Source: Woeseiaceae bacterium (GTDB lineage: Bacteria; Pseudomonadota; Gammaproteobacteria; Steroidobacterales; Woeseiaceae). From it: a stretch of DNA of 64,000 nucleotides. Location: positions 62,001 to 126,000 of the forward strand of contig JANQGQ010000022.1 of the NCBI GenBank assembly GCA_028277185.1, written 5' to 3'. Of the stretch, positions 19,484 to 26,499 are shown piece after piece (position 1 is the stretch's first letter; every line of letters starts with the position of its first letter). The notes under the pieces were generated by a model. That model made no database searches. It was given only the letters and a program-made list of their open reading frames with translations, and was not told the DNA's origin. The position numbers and the translations under genes were made by a program.

Positions 19484-21031
19484 CTACGGACAGGGCTGAA
19501 TCGACCGCGATCCCCGAGGCACCTCGAACGCCGCAAGCGTGAAGACCTCCGCCTGCGGCACGCTCACGTCTTTGACGGCGCGCATCTCCGTTCGCCAGCG
19601 GTCCCGGTTCACGTCGCACCAAAGATAGCCCGAGTACCGGTTGTCGAAGAATCGCATCGACGGGTTCTCGGCAGGCCGCCCCGTCACATCGGCATAGCGT
19701 TCATCGTCGCCCCGCGACGCCGAAATCGACGACGCGATGAACTCGACCAGCGCGGGTTCGCTGTCGGGATCGCCCGGATTCGCGTTTACCCGACCAGCGT
19801 AGAACGCGTGGATGTTCCCGGCAAGCGAGACCACGTTGTCCAGCCCTCGCGTCCTGACGCGATCCAGAATCCGTTGCCGGTTGGCCGGATAGCTGTCCCA
19901 GCCGTCCGCCTCGTAGGCGACCTCCGGTCCCGCCCGCCGGTCGAACGGCGCCATGAGCGTCGCCTGCACGAGCGCGTCCCAGAGGGTGTCGGAGGCGCCG
20001 AGGCCATCGAGAAGCCAGGCCTCCTGGCGTTGGCCGAGCAGACTGCGCGCAGGATCGTCGGCCGCGTCGCAGGGTACGAAGTCGAGCGGACGCGTCTCGT
20101 TGCACACCGGCACGTCGCGGTACTGCCGGACGTCGAGCAGACTCATCCCGACGAGATCGCCGACCCTTGCCCGGTCGTAGAGCTTCAGACCGCCGTCGAC
20201 GAGTTTCGTGCTCAACCGAAACGGCATGTGCTCGAGATAGGCCCGCAGCGCGGCGCGCTTTCTTGCGGCGAACTGCCCGATCGGCACGACCGGCCCGCCC
20301 CGCGCCGGGATATGGTGTTTCGGCCCCCAGTCGTTCACGACCTCGTGATCGTCGGGGATCAGGAACCACGGGTGGCGCGCATGGGCAAGCTGGAGGTCCG
20401 CGTCCTGCCGGTAAGCCGCGTACAGCAGCCGGTAGTCGCTCAGCGACACCGCTTCTTCGACCGGCACCGGGCGCACGGTGTTCCAGACGTTTTCGTAGAT
20501 GTAGTCGCCCGTGTGCACGATGAACTGCGGGTCCCGGGCAACCATGTCGCGGTAGGCCGTGAAGTAGCCGTCGCCGAGATTCTGGCAGCACGCACTCGCG
20601 AAGCGCAGCGAATCGAGCCTCGACCCGGGCGCCGGCAGCGTCCGCGTGCGCCCGAGCCGGCTCTGAAACGGCCCGGTGTCGAACCGGTAAAAGTACGTGG
20701 TGTCCGCTTCGAGTCCCCTCGCCTCCACGTGGATCGCATGTGCCCGCTCGGCCCGTGCGATCGCCTCGCCTTCGCCGACGATCTGCCGCATTTCCCGATC
20801 GGCGGCGATGCGCCAGCGCACCGCCACGGGTTCGTCGAGCAGACGATCGTCGAACGGATCGGGCGCCAGCCGCGTCCACAGAACGACGCTGGACGCGTCC
20901 GGATCGCCCGAAGCCACGCCAAGCGTGAACGGATTGCCTTTCGGGCGCCCGTCCTTGGCGGTGTACGAGCAACCCAGCACCAAGCCGCAGGACGCGGCAC
21001 CCGCGAGGAAGCGCCGACGCGAGGGGTTCAC
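19484..21031 (-). CDS. phoD: PhoD-like alkaline phosphatase, Tat-exported
   Basis: 515-residue phosphodiesterase/phosphatase of the PhoD family. The start is a GTG at 21031 that overlaps the stop of the receptor gene (GTGA). Residues 1-20 form a Tat signal (SRRRFLAGAASCGLVLGC), with a possible lipobox. Metal-site motifs are visible: FASACCQN, HTGDYIYENV, PDDHEVVNDW and LAGNIHAF. PhoD enzymes use iron and calcium and release phosphate from phosphodiesters. Being the last gene of a FecI-FecR-receptor operon, it may degrade the receptor's ligand or release product from it; this is inference. The frame is open far upstream, which is only read-through of the receptor gene in another frame. Confidence 0.9.
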   Translation of the reverse strand: MNPSRRRFLAGAASCGLVLGCSYTAKDGRPKGNPFTLGVASGDPDASSVVLWTRLAPDPFDDRLLDEPVAVRWRIAADREMRQIVGEGEAIARAERAHAIHVEARGLEADTTYFYRFDTGPFQSRLGRTRTLPAPGSRLDSLRFASACCQNLGDGYFTAYRDMVARDPQFIVHTGDYIYENVWNTVRPVPVEEAVSLSDYRLLYAAYRQDADLQLAHARHPWFLIPDDHEVVNDWGPKHHIPARGGPVVPIGQFAARKRAALRAYLEHMPFRLSTKLVDGGLKLYDRARVGDLVGMSLLDVRQYRDVPVCNETRPLDFVPCDAADDPARSLLGQRQEAWLLDGLGASDTLWDALVQATLMAPFDRRAGPEVAYEADGWDSYPANRQRILDRVRTRGLDNVVSLAGNIHAFYAGRVNANPGDPDSEPALVEFIASSISASRGDDERYADVTGRPAENPSMRFFDNRYSGYLWCDVNRDRWRTEMRAVKDVSVPQAEVFTLAAFEVPRGSRSIQPCP

Positions 21032-23577
21032 TGACGGAACGTCACGTTGATGCCGTAGGTACGCGGCGGGCCGAAGTACTCGGCGATCGCGCCGGAGGTA
21101 CCGCGAATCCGCACGAAGTCCTCGTCGCCGAGGTTGCGGCCCCAGAGCGTGACCGACCAGCGGTCGGCATTCCAGCTGTAGCCGAGCCGCGCATCGATCA
21201 GCGAATAGCTGTCGATCAGGAACTGCGGGATATTGCTCGCGCCCGTGAAGTACTCGTCCTGCCAGGTGTAGTTGATGCCGGCCCGCAAGCTGCCCGTGCC
21301 GATATCGCGAACGTAGTCGAGTGTGGCGGAGAAGCTGTTCTCCGGCGCCGTCTGTAGCTGATTGCCGCTGAAATCCGCGCCGCCCGGGATTACGAACTCG
21401 TCGTATACGGCGTCGAGCCACGAGTAGGTAGCGGTGGCGGAAAGCGTGCTCGTGATGGACCAGGCCAGCTCCAGTTCGGCGCCCTCCATCGTCGCCTCGG
21501 CGGCGTTGAAGATGCTGAAGAACGAGCCCGGCAGGAGGAAGCCCTCCTGCTTGTTTTCGTATTCCTGGCGGAACAGCGTGGCGTTCGCGATCAAACGCCC
21601 GTTGTTCCACGCGGTTTTCGCCCCGAGTTCGTAGGCCGTGATCGTCTCGGGTTCGAAACCCAGTTCGACGGCCGTGATGTTGCTGGTCTCGGTGTTAAAA
21701 CCGCCGGCCGTGAAACCCTCGGTGCGGCTCGCGAACAGCGTCACCGTGTCCGTCGGGAAATAGCTCAGGGTGATCCGCGGCGTAAACTCGGAGAAACTGT
21801 TGCCGACGGCCGTGTTGAAATTGTTGTCGTTATTGTTGCTATCGACATAGCGTACGTCGACGTCTTTGTCCTCGGACGTGTAGCGCCCGCCGATCCCGAG
21901 ATCGACTTTGGGGCCGAGGTGGAACGTCGCGCTCAGGTAGGCCGCGAAGCTCTCCGTGTCTGCCTGCACCGTGAAGTCCCGATTTACGAACTCGGCGTTG
22001 CCGTTAGCGCCGAGCAAGAGATCGCCAAGGAAACGATCGGTCGTCTCGTCGTAAAAATACAGACCGGCGACGAAGTCGAATATCTTGCCGGGTTCGCTGA
22101 TGAACCGCAGCTCCTGCGAGAACGCGCTCGGCTCGTCGTTGTCGTCCTTGATGAACTGCGTGGAAACGGACGGCAGCGTCACATCGGCGGCTCCGAGGCT
22201 GTAGAGCTCCCTCGAGTCCGACTGCCTGAGCGCGGTAATCGACTGCACCGTACCCGCGCCGACCGTCCAGTCGACGTGCGCCGAGGCACCGTAGATGTCG
22301 CGCTCGAAAGACTGCGGCACGCGCAGCTCCGAGGTTCGGTTATCGCCGTCGTTGCCTGTGAGGTCGCTGCCGTCCGAACTCGACACGAACGAGTACCCTT
22401 TGCCCCCGTTCTCGTCGCGGGCGTAGTCCGCCGCAAGCCGTATCTCGAGCCCCGCGGCCGGGTGGAACGTCAGTCCGCCGCGTACCGTCAGCGAGTCGAG
22501 ATCTTCCAGCGTGTTGCCGTTGAAGCGATCGACGGAAAATCCGTCCCGCTGCCGGTACCCGACGCTGATCTTGCCCGCGGCGGTATCCGAGAACGGACCC
22601 GAAGCAAATGCGTCGACCTCGACGAGATCGTAGTTGCCCGTTCCCGCCCGAACCCGCAGGTCCGGCGCGTCGAAGGAAGGCTCCTCGGTGTAGATCTGGA
22701 TCGCGCCGCCGGTGACGTTCCGGCCGAACAACGTGCCCTGCGGCCCGCGCAGCACCGACACCTGCCGGACGTCGAACAACTGAAAGGCCGCGCCGGAGTA
22801 CCGCGGTACGTAGACGTCATCGATGAAGATGCCGACCGGCTTGCTCGCGCCCGCCTGACTGAAGGTATTCATCGCGCCGCGCACCGCGAAGTTCGGCGAG
22901 CTGTTGTTGAAGTAGGACGCCGCGAACCCGGGCGTGAACCGCGCAATGTCGTCGATCTCGAAAAAGCGATTCTCGACGAGGAGATCACCGGCAAACACCG
23001 TCCCCGTCACCGGCACATCCTGGAAGTTCTCTGCGCGAATCTGGGCCGTGACGACGATCTCCTCGATCTGCATGGTGTCCAGACCGCCGACGTCCTGCGC
23101 CGCGGCGGACCCGAGGAACACGGCGGATAGCAGCGCCGCGAGTCCTGACTTCTTTCTGTCGTTCATTTCCGTCTCCTCAACGTCTGATCGAGCGCCTGCC
23201 TCGATCTTCAACCCGCCCTCGGGATCGAACAGAGGGCGCAAACCCGTGTTCTCGAGGAGTAAGCTCACTGCTTCCTGCAGCGTGTAGCGACCGACGACCG
23301 CGTTTGCAGTCGTCTCGCTGGCGACGTCGTACGGGAATACGAACGTCAGGTCCGCTTGCTCCGCGAGCTGGATAAGCGCCTGGTCGGCGGTCTGTTGAGG
23401 AATGTCGAAAACAAATACGTCGGTGTCGTCCGCCGTCCACGCCGTGTGCGGCTGGCAGAGGATCAGAGCCAGAAAGCCCAGGACGTACGTGCCTGCCCTT
23501 TCGTCAACGGTACGCTTTACGCGCTTCCGGCTTCTGGACGAATGAGCAATGGATTTCCGCCAAACGAAAAACGTCAT
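21028..23577 (-). CDS. FecA-like TonB receptor with STN domain and a second internal signal peptide
   Basis: 849-residue reading frame. Residues 1-50 are a long basic signal peptide (hydrophobic core YVLGFLALILC); residues 53-125 are an STN signalling domain (FVFDIPQQTADQALIQLAEQ, GRYTLQEAVSLLLENTGL). Then comes a second complete signal peptide (MNDRKKSGLAALLSAVFLG, ending SAAA-QD), TonB-box-like EEIVVTAQI, a plug (VSVLRGPQGTLFGRNVTGGA) and a barrel ending in the motif NVTFRQ. The internal ATG at 23166 has a perfect GAGGAG site six bases upstream and would give a normal 712-residue receptor without STN. The frame is unbroken between the two parts. It follows fecR by 52 bases. A FecI-type promoter motif lies inside codons 6-15. 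Confidence 0.9.
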   Translation of the reverse strand: MTFFVWRKSIAHSSRSRKRVKRTVDERAGTYVLGFLALILCQPHTAWTADDTDVFVFDIPQQTADQALIQLAEQADLTFVFPYDVASETTANAVVGRYTLQEAVSLLLENTGLRPLFDPEGGLKIEAGARSDVEETEMNDRKKSGLAALLSAVFLGSAAAQDVGGLDTMQIEEIVVTAQIRAENFQDVPVTGTVFAGDLLVENRFFEIDDIARFTPGFAASYFNNSSPNFAVRGAMNTFSQAGASKPVGIFIDDVYVPRYSGAAFQLFDVRQVSVLRGPQGTLFGRNVTGGAIQIYTEEPSFDAPDLRVRAGTGNYDLVEVDAFASGPFSDTAAGKISVGYRQRDGFSVDRFNGNTLEDLDSLTVRGGLTFHPAAGLEIRLAADYARDENGGKGYSFVSSSDGSDLTGNDGDNRTSELRVPQSFERDIYGASAHVDWTVGAGTVQSITALRQSDSRELYSLGAADVTLPSVSTQFIKDDNDEPSAFSQELRFISEPGKIFDFVAGLYFYDETTDRFLGDLLLGANGNAEFVNRDFTVQADTESFAAYLSATFHLGPKVDLGIGGRYTSEDKDVDVRYVDSNNNDNNFNTAVGNSFSEFTPRITLSYFPTDTVTLFASRTEGFTAGGFNTETSNITAVELGFEPETITAYELGAKTAWNNGRLIANATLFRQEYENKQEGFLLPGSFFSIFNAAEATMEGAELELAWSITSTLSATATYSWLDAVYDEFVIPGGADFSGNQLQTAPENSFSATLDYVRDIGTGSLRAGINYTWQDEYFTGASNIPQFLIDSYSLIDARLGYSWNADRWSVTLWGRNLGDEDFVRIRGTSGAIAEYFGPPRTYGINVTFRQ
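23164..23178 (-). promoter_or_regulatory. Internal ribosome site and start codon in the receptor gene
   Basis: On the minus strand GAGGAG (23178-23173), a six-base spacer and ATG (23166-23164) form an ideal translation start. The ATG opens a standard signal peptide. It can produce a receptor isoform lacking the STN signalling domain, or it may mark the ancestral start of the receptor before fusion with an STN gene. Confidence 0.65.
23535..23563 (-). promoter_or_regulatory. FecI-type promoter-like motif, receptor copy
   Basis: The minus-strand sequence carries GGCGGAAA, then TGCTCATTCGTC, and agrees with the copy in front of the sigma gene (25257-25285) at 24 of 29 positions. GGAAA and CGTC are typical -35 and -10 elements of FecI-group sigma factors. 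It lies inside the annotated beginning of the receptor frame, so a transcript from it would miss the ATG at 23577. Confidence 0.6.
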
Positions 23578-23629
23578 CTTTTCGTTACGTTTGTGGGGGC
23601 GGCCCGGCCCTCGGTTAGAAAGCGTCGTA

Positions 23630-24643
23630 TCAGCGACTGCTGAGCAGTACTTTGTCGTCGCCGATACGCTGATACGAGATATCGAAGTTGTTCTGTAGCG
23701 TGATCAGCAGACCCTCGACATCGCCGGCTTTGAAATGGCCCGCGACGCGCACCTCCCGGGACCGTTCGTCGAGGAATACGAATTCGACTTCCGTGTAGCG
23801 CCCGACCTCCGTCATCGCGTCCTCGAGCGATTCGCCCCGGAACACGATGTTGCCATCGGTCCATGACAGCTTCACTTCGATCTCATCCGTTTCGATGCGC
23901 TCGACCTGCTCGCCGGACTGGCCCAACACGACGCGCGAACCGCTGGTCATCCGGGTCGCGGATGCCGGCGACAGCAGCGCTTCCCCATCGTCCGATGCGG
24001 CGTTCTGGATTCCGACCAGCACGGCACCCTCGATGACGATGACCTCTACGGACTGCCCGCTGGTGATTTCGACGTTGAACACCGTGCCAATCGCCTGAAT
24101 GACGCTTGCCTCCGCGTGGACCAGAAGCGGCCGTATCGGATCACGCGCCACCGTGACGTTGATCTCGCCGCGCTCGAGATCGATGACGCGACTGCCCTGC
24201 GAGTAGCGCACCTGCATCCTGCTGTCGGTATTCAGTACGATGACGGTTCCGTCGCTCAGACTGACCGTCGACTGCTCGCCGATTGCCGTCTCGTATACCG
24301 CCGCCTTCGCGGTGTCGCCGGCGTCGCCCGGATAGATCGACGGCACCGCGAACCAGACGGCCGCGGCCACTGCAAGCAGCGCCGAAGCAGCGACGGCCAA
24401 CCCGGGCGCCCGGCGGCGCCGCCGTTCGACATCCGGCAGGATCTCGGCCAGCCGGCCCAACGCGTCCATCTTGTCCCAGAGCTCGGCCATTTCGAGAAAC
24501 AGCTCGCGATTGCGGGTGTCGGCGAGGAACGCCTGCAGCCCGGTTTCCTCGTCCGGCGAAAGCCCGCGATCGATCCGGGCGATCCAGGCGCTGGCCTCGT
24601 CGTACCGACGATCCTGAGTATTGATTTCGTAGATGTTGCTCAT
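23630..24643 (-). CDS. FecR-type anti-sigma / signal transducer
   Basis: 337-residue inner-membrane protein of the FecR family. An N-terminal DUF4880-like helix region (ASAWIARIDRGLSPDEETGLQAFLA) binds the sigma factor; one transmembrane segment lies at about 81-104 (LAVAASALLAVAAAVWFAV). The periplasmic FecR domain follows (QSTVSLSDGTVIVLNTDS, VARDPIRPLLVHAEASVIQAIG), and the C-terminal part resembles an STN-contacting domain. It passes the ligand signal from the receptor's STN domain to the sigma factor. Its ATG overlaps the sigma stop codon (ATGA). Confidence 0.93.
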   Translation of the reverse strand: MSNIYEINTQDRRYDEASAWIARIDRGLSPDEETGLQAFLADTRNRELFLEMAELWDKMDALGRLAEILPDVERRRRRAPGLAVAASALLAVAAAVWFAVPSIYPGDAGDTAKAAVYETAIGEQSTVSLSDGTVIVLNTDSRMQVRYSQGSRVIDLERGEINVTVARDPIRPLLVHAEASVIQAIGTVFNVEITSGQSVEVIVIEGAVLVGIQNAASDDGEALLSPASATRMTSGSRVVLGQSGEQVERIETDEIEVKLSWTDGNIVFRGESLEDAMTEVGRYTEVEFVFLDERSREVRVAGHFKAGDVEGLLITLQNNFDISYQRIGDDKVLLSSR

Positions 24644-25218
24644 AGCTCGTCATCCTTGCCGAGTCCCGGGGCCCTGCGGCGCCGCGTCCGTGAGACCGTA
24701 CCGGAGGGAAGTGCCTGGCGCCGCATGAACTGCGTACAGCCGCGGATTCCCCGCGCGATGTGCTTCTCGACCGTGCTTTCCGACAGACGGAGCACGTCCG
24801 CGATCTCACGCTGCGAAAAACCGTAGACCTTCCGCAGGACGAAGGCCTTCCGACACTGCGCCGGAAGGTAGCGGACGGCATCGCAGAATCGCGAGAACTC
24901 CTGATCGGACACGACGGTCTCCAGCGTGCTGTCGCAACGCTCGCCGAGCACACCAGTCACGCTCTCTACGTCGTCCGTCGCGCTCGTAAGCCGCGACTCG
25001 GCGCGCTTGAGATAGTCGATGGCGAGGTTCCGGGCGGTGGCGAACAGAAACGACTTCGGCGATCGGATCCGCCCGACGTTTCTGGTCTCGCGAACGCGCA
25101 GGTAGGTCTCCTGGACGATGTCCTCGATCTCCCGCGGCGGCACGATACCGCTGATCGAACGCGCCAGCTGCGACCGAAAGTCGAGAAACGCTTTGGTGAG
25201 AGAATCGCCGTTTGCCAA
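24640..25218 (-). CDS. FecI-type ECF sigma factor
   Basis: 192-residue sigma-70 of the extracytoplasmic FecI group. Region 2 is seen as REIEDIVQETYLRV and FLFATARNLAIDYLKR; region 4 as LPAQCRKAFVLRKVYGFSQREIADVLRLSESTVEKHIARGI-type helices. The C-terminal tail is basic. It heads the operon sigma, anti-sigma, receptor, PhoD, all on the minus strand with overlaps or short gaps, so the set is a complete surface-signalling system. A promoter-like motif at 25257-25285 suggests autoregulation. Confidence 0.94.
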   Translation of the reverse strand: MANGDSLTKAFLDFRSQLARSISGIVPPREIEDIVQETYLRVRETRNVGRIRSPKSFLFATARNLAIDYLKRAESRLTSATDDVESVTGVLGERCDSTLETVVSDQEFSRFCDAVRYLPAQCRKAFVLRKVYGFSQREIADVLRLSESTVEKHIARGIRGCTQFMRRQALPSGTVSRTRRRRAPGLGKDDEL

Positions 25219-25256
25219 CGCTCTGGCCCTTGCTGTCCCGGTTGCTCAATCTGCCA

Positions 25257-25285
25257 TAGACGAATGAGCAGCGGTTTTCCGCCAG
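25257..25285 (-). promoter_or_regulatory. FecI-type promoter-like motif upstream of the sigma gene
   Basis: Minus-strand motif with GGCGGAAA and TGCTCATTCGTC, ending 39 bases before the sigma start codon. It is repeated nearly exactly at 23535-23563. Its GGAAA/CGTC layout fits a FecI-group promoter, although the gap between the two elements (13 bases) is shorter than in the E. coli fecA promoter. Confidence 0.6.
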
Positions 25286-25302: not shown

Positions 25303-26499
25303 CTAGAGCGCCAGCGCCGCCCGGATGACGAACGCGTTCGTAATGTCCACGAAAAACGCCGCGACGAGCGGCAGGATGATGAACGCCAGCGGCGCCGGTC
25401 CGTTGGCTTTGGTTACAGCGGTCATGTTGGCAATTGCCGTCGGCGTGGCGCCCAACGCGAAGCCGCCGAAACCCGCGCTGAGCACCGCCGCCTGATAGTC
25501 CTTGCCCATGGCCGGGAACAGGACGAACAGGATGAACAGCACGGCCGCCATGGTCTGCAGCAGCAGGATCAGGAGAAGCGGTCCCGCGAGGCCCGCCACG
25601 GTCCATAGCTGCATGCTCATCAGAGACATCGCCAGGAACAGGCCGAGCGAAAAATCGGACACCAACGCCAGCGCCCGAGTCCGCGCGGGCCAGGTGATGC
25701 GACGGAAGATCAACGGCACGGTGTTCGACATGACGATGGCCGTGAGCAGGCAGGTCACGAACAGCGGCAGTTTGAACCCGCTCCGCGACAGCGCATCGTT
25801 GATGAGCCAGCCGATGATGATGGCGATGTGCAGGACGAGGATGACGCGCATGATGCTCATGTGATTCAGCGTCTCCGTGGCCTCTTTCGCATAGCCGATG
25901 CCAACGACGGATTTTTCGTCGCTGCTCTTCAGCCGATAGCGACCGATGAGGAGTTTGGCGATCGGCCCACCGATCAGACTCGCGACGACGAGGCCGAGCG
26001 TCGCGGACGCGACGCCGATCTCCAGTGCGTTCGGTATGCCCTGGGCGACGAAGTCGGGCGCCCAGGCAATCGCCGTGCCGTGCCCGCCGATCAGCGACGT
26101 CGAACCCGCGAGAATCCCGATCTCCGCGGGCAATCCCACGAGACTGGCGCCCGACATTCCGACGACGTTCTGAACGACGATATAGGACAGCGTCAGCACG
26201 AGCATGATCGCGAGCGGCTTGCCACCGCGGATGAGATCGCTGACGCGGGCATTGAGTCCGATCGCTGTGAAGAAGTAGACGAGCAGCCGGTCGCGGGTGT
26301 CGAGCTCGAAGCTGACTTCGACGTTTGCAAGCACATAGAGCGCAAGCGTCACGAGTGCGGCGACAAGGCCGCCACTGACCGGCTCCGGGATGTTGTAGGC
26401 GCGCAGCACCGTCACCTTCCGGTTCAGGTGCACGCCGACGAAATAGACGACGATCCCGAGCGTGTACGCGACGAAACTGTCGATCTGGATTTCTGTCAC
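25303..26499 (-). CDS. gltS: Sodium/glutamate symporter
   Basis: 398-residue inner-membrane transporter of the GltS family that imports glutamate with sodium. There are about ten or more hydrophobic segments arranged in two repeats; family motifs include IPEPVSGGLVAAL, STSLIGGHGTAIAWAP and, in the second half, GFGGFALGATPTAIANM, the two pore loops. The start is a GTG overlapping the stop of the small upstream gene (GTGA). It stands behind that gene in one unit. Length fits the family (about 400). Confidence 0.95.
   Translation of the reverse strand: MTEIQIDSFVAYTLGIVVYFVGVHLNRKVTVLRAYNIPEPVSGGLVAALVTLALYVLANVEVSFELDTRDRLLVYFFTAIGLNARVSDLIRGGKPLAIMLVLTLSYIVVQNVVGMSGASLVGLPAEIGILAGSTSLIGGHGTAIAWAPDFVAQGIPNALEIGVASATLGLVVASLIGGPIAKLLIGRYRLKSSDEKSVVGIGYAKEATETLNHMSIMRVILVLHIAIIIGWLINDALSRSGFKLPLFVTCLLTAIVMSNTVPLIFRRITWPARTRALALVSDFSLGLFLAMSLMSMQLWTVAGLAGPLLLILLLQTMAAVLFILFVLFPAMGKDYQAAVLSAGFGGFALGATPTAIANMTAVTKANGPAPLAFIILPLVAAFFVDITNAFVIRAALAL

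Follow-up and report, generated by a model that had tools for sequence, protein, structure and literature searches.

The locus considered here lies on the minus strand of a 64,000-nucleotide stretch of DNA from a Woeseiaceae bacterium (the window), which belongs to contig C15 in an assembly of 4.4 Mb (44 contigs, 98% complete). In the direction of the genes, a sodium/glutamate symporter (25303-26499) is followed by a fecI-like gene for an extracytoplasmic function (ECF) sigma factor, a fecR-like sigma regulator gene, the frame of a TonB-dependent receptor, and the gene of a PhoD-like phosphatase. An ECF sigma factor, an adjoining FecR and a TonB-dependent receptor with an N-terminal STN (signalling) domain, the components of a FecIRA-type system, are all present. 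The sigma protein has domain matches to both regions 2 and 4. The STN score of the window protein against PF07660 is 26.3 bits, under the cut-off of 28.4, and an STN profile built from 20 sequences matches the solved STN domains of FpvA (2.5e-13), PupA, PupB, HasR and FecA. The features that make the locus unusual are two copies of one motif, P1 and P2, and a candidate start behind the STN domain (Table 1). With these, a nutrient-receptor gene of Woeseia-like bacteria appears to be equipped with an additional promoter and also with an additional start that brings its own export signal.

Table 1. Features of the fecI-fecR-receptor locus, by position in the window (SP1 and SP2, first and second signal peptide)
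Feature	Position	Strand	Basis or remark
P1, putative FecI-type promoter motif GGAAA-N13-CGTC upstream of fecI	25257-25285	-	Pattern searches, scan of relatives
fecI-like ECF sigma factor gene, TTG start	24640-25218	-	Sigma70_r2 and Sigma70_r4_2 matches
fecR-like sigma regulator gene	23630-24643	-	FecR PF04773 (73 bits) and FecR_C PF16344 (32 bits), both above cut-off
ATG of the long receptor form	23575-23577	-	19 nucleotides upstream of the GGAAA of P2; no Shine-Dalgarno sequence, duplex +0.1 kcal/mol
Long receptor form, 849 amino acids	21028-23577	-	Open reading frame
P2, second motif copy, inside the receptor frame (codons 6-15)	23535-23563	-	Pattern searches, scan of relatives
SP1, core VLGFLALIL	23431-23535	-	Limits by eye; no canonical start downstream of P2
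STN (signalling) domain	23194-23418	-	PF07660; approximate limits set by eye
GAGGAG, candidate Shine-Dalgarno sequence of the internal start	23173-23178	-	7-12 bases ahead of ATG 23166
Internal ATG (23166) and SP2, MNDRKKSGLAALLSAVFLGSAAA followed by Q	23098-23166	-	Cleavage point (before Q) by eye
Short receptor form, 712 amino acids: SP2, TonB-box-like EEIVVTA, plug, beta-barrel	21028-23166	-	Frame and domain matches

The motif before fecI and within the receptor frame

The first-pass annotation of this DNA had described a 29-base motif in two copies with 24 of 29 bases equal, the second of them within codons 6-15 of the receptor, and both statements hold for P1 and P2 in the 849-residue frame. 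A shared 25-mer pattern, with up to three mismatches allowed, occurs at two places in the window and in none of 100 shuffled windows. The exact pattern GGAAAN5TGNTCATTCGTC is found at P1 and P2 only in the 4.4-Mb genome, the next best site having two mismatches. FecI-group promoters have a GGAAA-type -35 and a GTC-type -10 element. The proposal that GGAAA and CGTC fit this group agrees with the scan, in which elements of both types are present and conserved. The loose pattern GGAAA-N14..18-CGTC is not enriched (six found, 4.5 expected); the actual spacer is 13 nucleotides.

Conservation was followed in 26 loci, which belong to 18 assemblies when these are told apart by handle or record name; several of the assemblies are fragmented. 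Twenty loci were taken by FecR similarity with the motif ignored, namely the 16 best rows of one similarity list and four of the 12 loci of another. The last six (L141-L146) came from a profile of the receptor N-terminus and were chosen because the profile match extended into the motif region, so that the P2 counts are partly selected. Since the loci are related, all figures are descriptive and do not count independent events. Duplicates (L069, L070, L074 and L140) were removed; L147 and L148 were omitted as they have no fecR close by, and L127 and L158 gave no usable match. The scan covered the first 40 rows of the main FecR list and the smaller part of the profile-search matches, with L075-L079 outside it. 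Contig ends kept L141 and L145 out of the P1 scan, so that P1 counts refer to 24 loci. The frame-wise counts given below (codon position, stops, ATGs and charge) omit L073.

A motif model that left out one locus at a time compared each site with 200 shuffles. No shuffle reached the score of the P1 site, before fecI, in 21 of 24 loci, or that of the P2 site, at the beginning of the STN-receptor frame, in 25 of 26 (18 and 19, respectively, of the first 20 loci); the P2 of L080 was reached by one shuffle. Strict GGAAA-N13-YGTC is present at P1 in 18/24 and at P2 in 23/26 loci, the variant sites being those of L080, L083, L092 and partly L094; the motif seeds were required to match this very pattern, which inflates the information at those positions. 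This position-specific scan took the place of an unsupervised pairing of the best 26-mers, which placed the motif at the top in 19 of 24 loci but scored above all 20 shuffles in 11 of 24 only. Among 42 other FecR loci, 34 were scanned at both places and none of these carries the motif at both, while four single sites in the 42 exceeded their 50 shuffles.

The two copies also change together. In 22 loci (L073 and L143, in which no P1 was found, were omitted) the flanks of P1 and P2 share 6.36 matches within a locus versus 4.02 (standard deviation 0.30) when re-paired between loci, a value reached in none of 5000 permutations. The spacer alone co-varies less than the flanks, its value being reached by 17 of 5000 re-pairings. 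Flanks common to both copies of a locus, as judged by eye, include TGGC, GGGT or TCAT before GGAAA and CGTCTA or CGTCGTA at the end. Such joint, locus-specific drift is what a single sigma factor reading both sites would give. Retention of the motif at both places in relatives was the check set in advance, and it is seen in nearly all close relatives, together with the co-variation within loci. It is very improbable that the motif is a conserved coding element or a chance repeat with no promoter function. P2 does lie in the STN reading frame (W-x-K ... S-S), with its phase to STN unchanged, in 25 of 26 loci; however, the motif also precedes fecI and is there not part of that frame, the copies change together across loci, and the shuffles exclude chance. 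The best reading of this conserved paired signal, as far as sequence can tell, is an autoregulated FecI-type promoter pair, and the presence of the receptor's motif before fecI predicts autoregulation of the sigma gene.

In L080, L091, L092 and L093, the sequence AGTTGG stands about 6 nucleotides past the CGTC, TGTC or CGTT of P1 and was not seen by eye at P2. It may be a downstream promoter element.

The two candidate starts of the receptor frame

Just past P2 the STN frame is open. From 25 to 60 nucleotides past the start of GGAAA, stops occur in 0 of 300 codons of this frame, compared with 9/300 and 24/300 in the other two, and from -24 to -7 they occur in 2 of 147. The claim that no ATG, GTG or TTG follows P2 in frame before the STN domain is correct for the window. 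Thirteen of the 26 loci, window included, have none of these codons between the CGTC of P2 and the SP1 core, and in five loci, again including the window, an ATG stands exactly 19 nucleotides before GGAAA. ATGs of the SP1 region have on average no Shine-Dalgarno sequence (best per locus, mean -3.2 kcal/mol in 19 loci). Net charge over the 15 codons that follow P2 fails to set the STN frame apart (1.92, 1.20 and 1.92 in the three frames).

A second candidate start, not noticed in the first pass, follows the STN domain at 23166. In all 26 loci the frame stays open past STN and leads to another segment that resembles a signal peptide and has a candidate start codon. The segment comprises the start codon, Lys/Arg-rich residues (in most loci), a hydrophobic core, Ala followed by Gln or Glu (in all 26 loci, placed by eye), a TonB-box-like stretch and the plug. 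The Shine-Dalgarno duplex of the internal start, scanned for the favoured candidate of each locus, averages -9.1 kcal/mol versus -3.0 at random sites, and is -6 or below in 22/26 loci versus 14%. The scan chose a Met within the hydrophobic stretch in L082, L142 and L143, and these rows were retained in the counts. The fecR starts of the same loci give a matching mean of -9.0 kcal/mol (24 loci). Under one best-of rule for both regions, SP1 has a mean of -4.0 (20 loci with a candidate, 7 at -6 or below) and SP2 of -9.3 (26 loci, 23 at -6 or below).

Codon usage points in the same direction. The Gly codon within the Shine-Dalgarno sequence is GGG in 16 of the 17 loci with that residue pattern (nine loci lack it), versus 13.5% of 1958 downstream Gly codons (P = 2e-13), and the Glu preceding it is GAG in 11 of 11 cases, compared with 597 of 1082 elsewhere. 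This bias points to the DNA, rather than the protein, as the target of selection. Six of 33 receptors from other loci lack an SP2-like segment and have the Shine-Dalgarno sequence at SP1 instead (mean -8.7, five of six at -6 or below); the remaining 27, which were sorted with a crude limit on hydrophobicity, are mixed (SP1 -5.7, SP2 -6.4).

Second signal-peptide-like segments after STN, several with a Shine-Dalgarno sequence, were also observed in the motif-less loci L104, L105, L107, L110, L118 and L153-L157, so that the second start is distributed more widely than the paired-motif family. In L083 and L088, an extra stretch between SP2 and the plug resembles, by eye, a carboxypeptidase regulatory-like domain.

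The FecA-type layout, with a single signal peptide and an STN domain joined directly to TonB box and plug, is thus replaced by one with an intervening SP2-like segment in all 26 loci. The suggestion that the gene gives signalling and non-signalling receptor forms gains from this conserved start with a signal peptide between STN and plug. The layout on which the suggestion was based does vary, in six and in three of the 26 loci, as described below.

The same segment might instead mark a point of cleavage. SP1 would then export the long protein and signal peptidase would cut it at SP2, leaving the STN domain released or anchored in the inner membrane near FecR, with the internal start adding more receptor; STN and receptor would in this way be parted by design. 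The position of the Ala-Gln/Glu pair, exactly between STN and the TonB-box-like stretch, and the lack of stops between STN and SP2 are in line with such a split. A similar proposal exists for Pseudomonas aeruginosa FoxA; according to an excerpt of the report (PMC11637429, 2024), proteolysis would release its signalling domain, which would protect FoxR. On the other hand, SP2 would follow an already exported domain and need not insert or be cut, and an internal start, unlike cleavage, accounts for the strong Shine-Dalgarno sequence and the fixed GGG codon. As the account of the whole locus, the split seems rather unlikely.

A proposed reading with two promoters and two starts

The locus is best understood as one for cell-surface signalling of the FecI-FecR kind that is autoregulated and in which the receptor gene is served by two promoters and translated from two starts, a reading that rests on sequence comparison and is given a probability of roughly 0.55. 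The sigma factor would read P1 ahead of fecI as well as P2 within the 5' part of the receptor gene. The long message from P1 would contain fecI, fecR and the whole receptor frame; translation of STN from it would be weak, starting in most loci from a codon upstream of or inside P2 and giving the STN-bearing signalling form. The short message from P2, whose 5' end in the window would lie downstream of the STN start, would be translated mainly from the ATG at 23166. Its product would be exported by its own Sec-type signal peptide, would keep TonB box, plug and barrel, and would transport and not signal. In addition or alternatively, the long form may be cut at SP2, which would free STN. That the sigma factor of the locus transcribes both messages, that each message gives the form assigned to it and that the STN form is scarce, we infer. 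A more tentative extension, somewhat less probable than the two-start reading itself, is that a single receptor gene provides both sensor and transporter through the autoregulated promoter pair and the two in-frame signal peptides. Induction would then shift production from STN-bearing to STN-less receptor, diluting the sensors as transport rises, and signal peptidase may also free STN.

Several observations weigh against the two-start reading. The loci comprise paralogues as well as orthologues and are not independent trials; no P1 was found in L073 and L143, and that of L083 is weak, two shuffles reaching it. In E. coli fecA, about 16 nucleotides separate GGAAA from the four-base element that ends in GTC, and the 13-nucleotide spacer found here is shorter. 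SP2-like starts occur also in STN receptors without the paired motif, so that the second start is independent of P2. The use of an STN start upstream of P2 agrees with an excess of in-frame ATGs at -24 to -7 of P2 (10/147 codons versus 3/290 in the other frames, P = 0.0015), a bin that was picked after viewing the data, and the other frames have ATG peaks of their own, 7/250 across P2 in one and 10/300 after P2 in another. The codon-position pattern is weakly coding-like in the 33 nucleotides after P2 and flat in the 24 nucleotides upstream, where many of these ATGs sit; translation from upstream of P2 is accordingly deduced from start codons and open frames and not from codon evolution. A Shine-Dalgarno sequence does precede the SP1-region ATG in 4 of 19 loci (L084, L086, L092 and L145). 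An ATG between P2 and SP1 is present in six of the 26 loci (L084, L088, L095, L096, L145 and L073), in which P2 messages could yield the STN form, and three (L087, L090 and L094) have no ATG, GTG or TTG from the upstream stop to the SP1 core, with STN conserved nonetheless. Across the loci, the presence of an upstream STN start and that of a downstream one show no significant complementarity (P = 0.11).

These last exceptions bear on the possibility that the STN form is expressed from P2, in the manner of classical FecA, and that its translation begins either from a non-canonical codon or, the message being leaderless, just past P2. Besides the three loci with no canonical start before SP1, it draws on L095 and L096, where an ATG stands 4 nucleotides after CGTC. 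In L095 (G014:C25) an in-frame TAA lies inside P2, so that its STN start must be downstream, and a leaderless start is possible there. Near-cognate codons (CTG, ATT, ATC and ATA), however, are not enriched after the motif in the STN frame (10/325 versus 20/300 and 10/325 in the other frames), on which ground non-AUG starts were rejected. In-frame ATGs cluster upstream of P2 instead, and the window has no ATG, GTG or TTG from P2 to STN. As a general account of these loci it is unlikely, and more so than cleavage at SP2.

A few loci show further arrangements of the STN start. In L084, L086 and L092 the in-frame ATG lies inside P2, and the motif's own GGGGGA can pair with the ribosome as a Shine-Dalgarno sequence. 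In L073 the frame link is broken, and an ATG of its own with a Shine-Dalgarno sequence stands before SP1. Read-through from fecR into STN was also considered; the STN frame continues the fecR frame after its stop in L091, L093, L095, L096, L142 and L143, and the idea was dropped because the frames differ in other loci.

The question at stake is by what route STN, as part of a receptor in the outer membrane, comes to FecR in the inner membrane, and whether it acts joined to the receptor or cut free. With a signal-peptide-like segment and an independent start between STN and receptor, single-site changes can test one against the other. If the two-start reading is true, a transport-only receptor does not require a gene apart from that of a signalling one, and the start codons of such receptors are easily mis-assigned.

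Known systems and neighbouring genes

Among the closest known counterparts, the E. coli FecI-FecR-FecA system has the same three protein types, an STN domain and an ECF promoter before the receptor gene. According to the excerpt of the source, fecIR is transcribed there with sigma-70 under Fur and is not autoregulated; in the present locus fecI bears the same motif as the receptor. That excerpt mentions no second signal peptide or start between STN and plug (PMC9249621). In P. aeruginosa, the STN domains of FpvA and of FoxA, in the FoxI-FoxR-FoxA system, are homologous to the one described here. The difference from FoxA lies in the manner of separation. A cut by the protease CtpA has been proposed for FoxA, which the authors, in the excerpted text, could not detect in the wild type (PMC11637429), whereas here a signal-peptide-like segment and an internal start part STN from the receptor at the level of the gene. 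The HemI-HemR-HemAD system of Stenotrophomonas maltophilia is likewise a fecIRA-like operon with sigma factor, regulator and receptor genes in line, and differs in that the excerpt reports it as not autoregulated and its receptor as truncated (PMC12772443). Searches of open-licence literature listings turned up no account of a signalling receptor that has another signal peptide and start of this kind.

Directly downstream of the receptor, the PhoD-like phosphatase gene (19484-21034) overlaps it, start to stop, in GTGA, and its N terminus has, by eye, a twin-arginine and a lipobox-like motif. In L082, a PhoD that is 46.5% identical likewise lies downstream of the receptor. A phosphate ester may be a substrate of the receptor. 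The window's own 4.4-Mb genome contains 18 FecR-family matches, a large set of surface-signalling loci.

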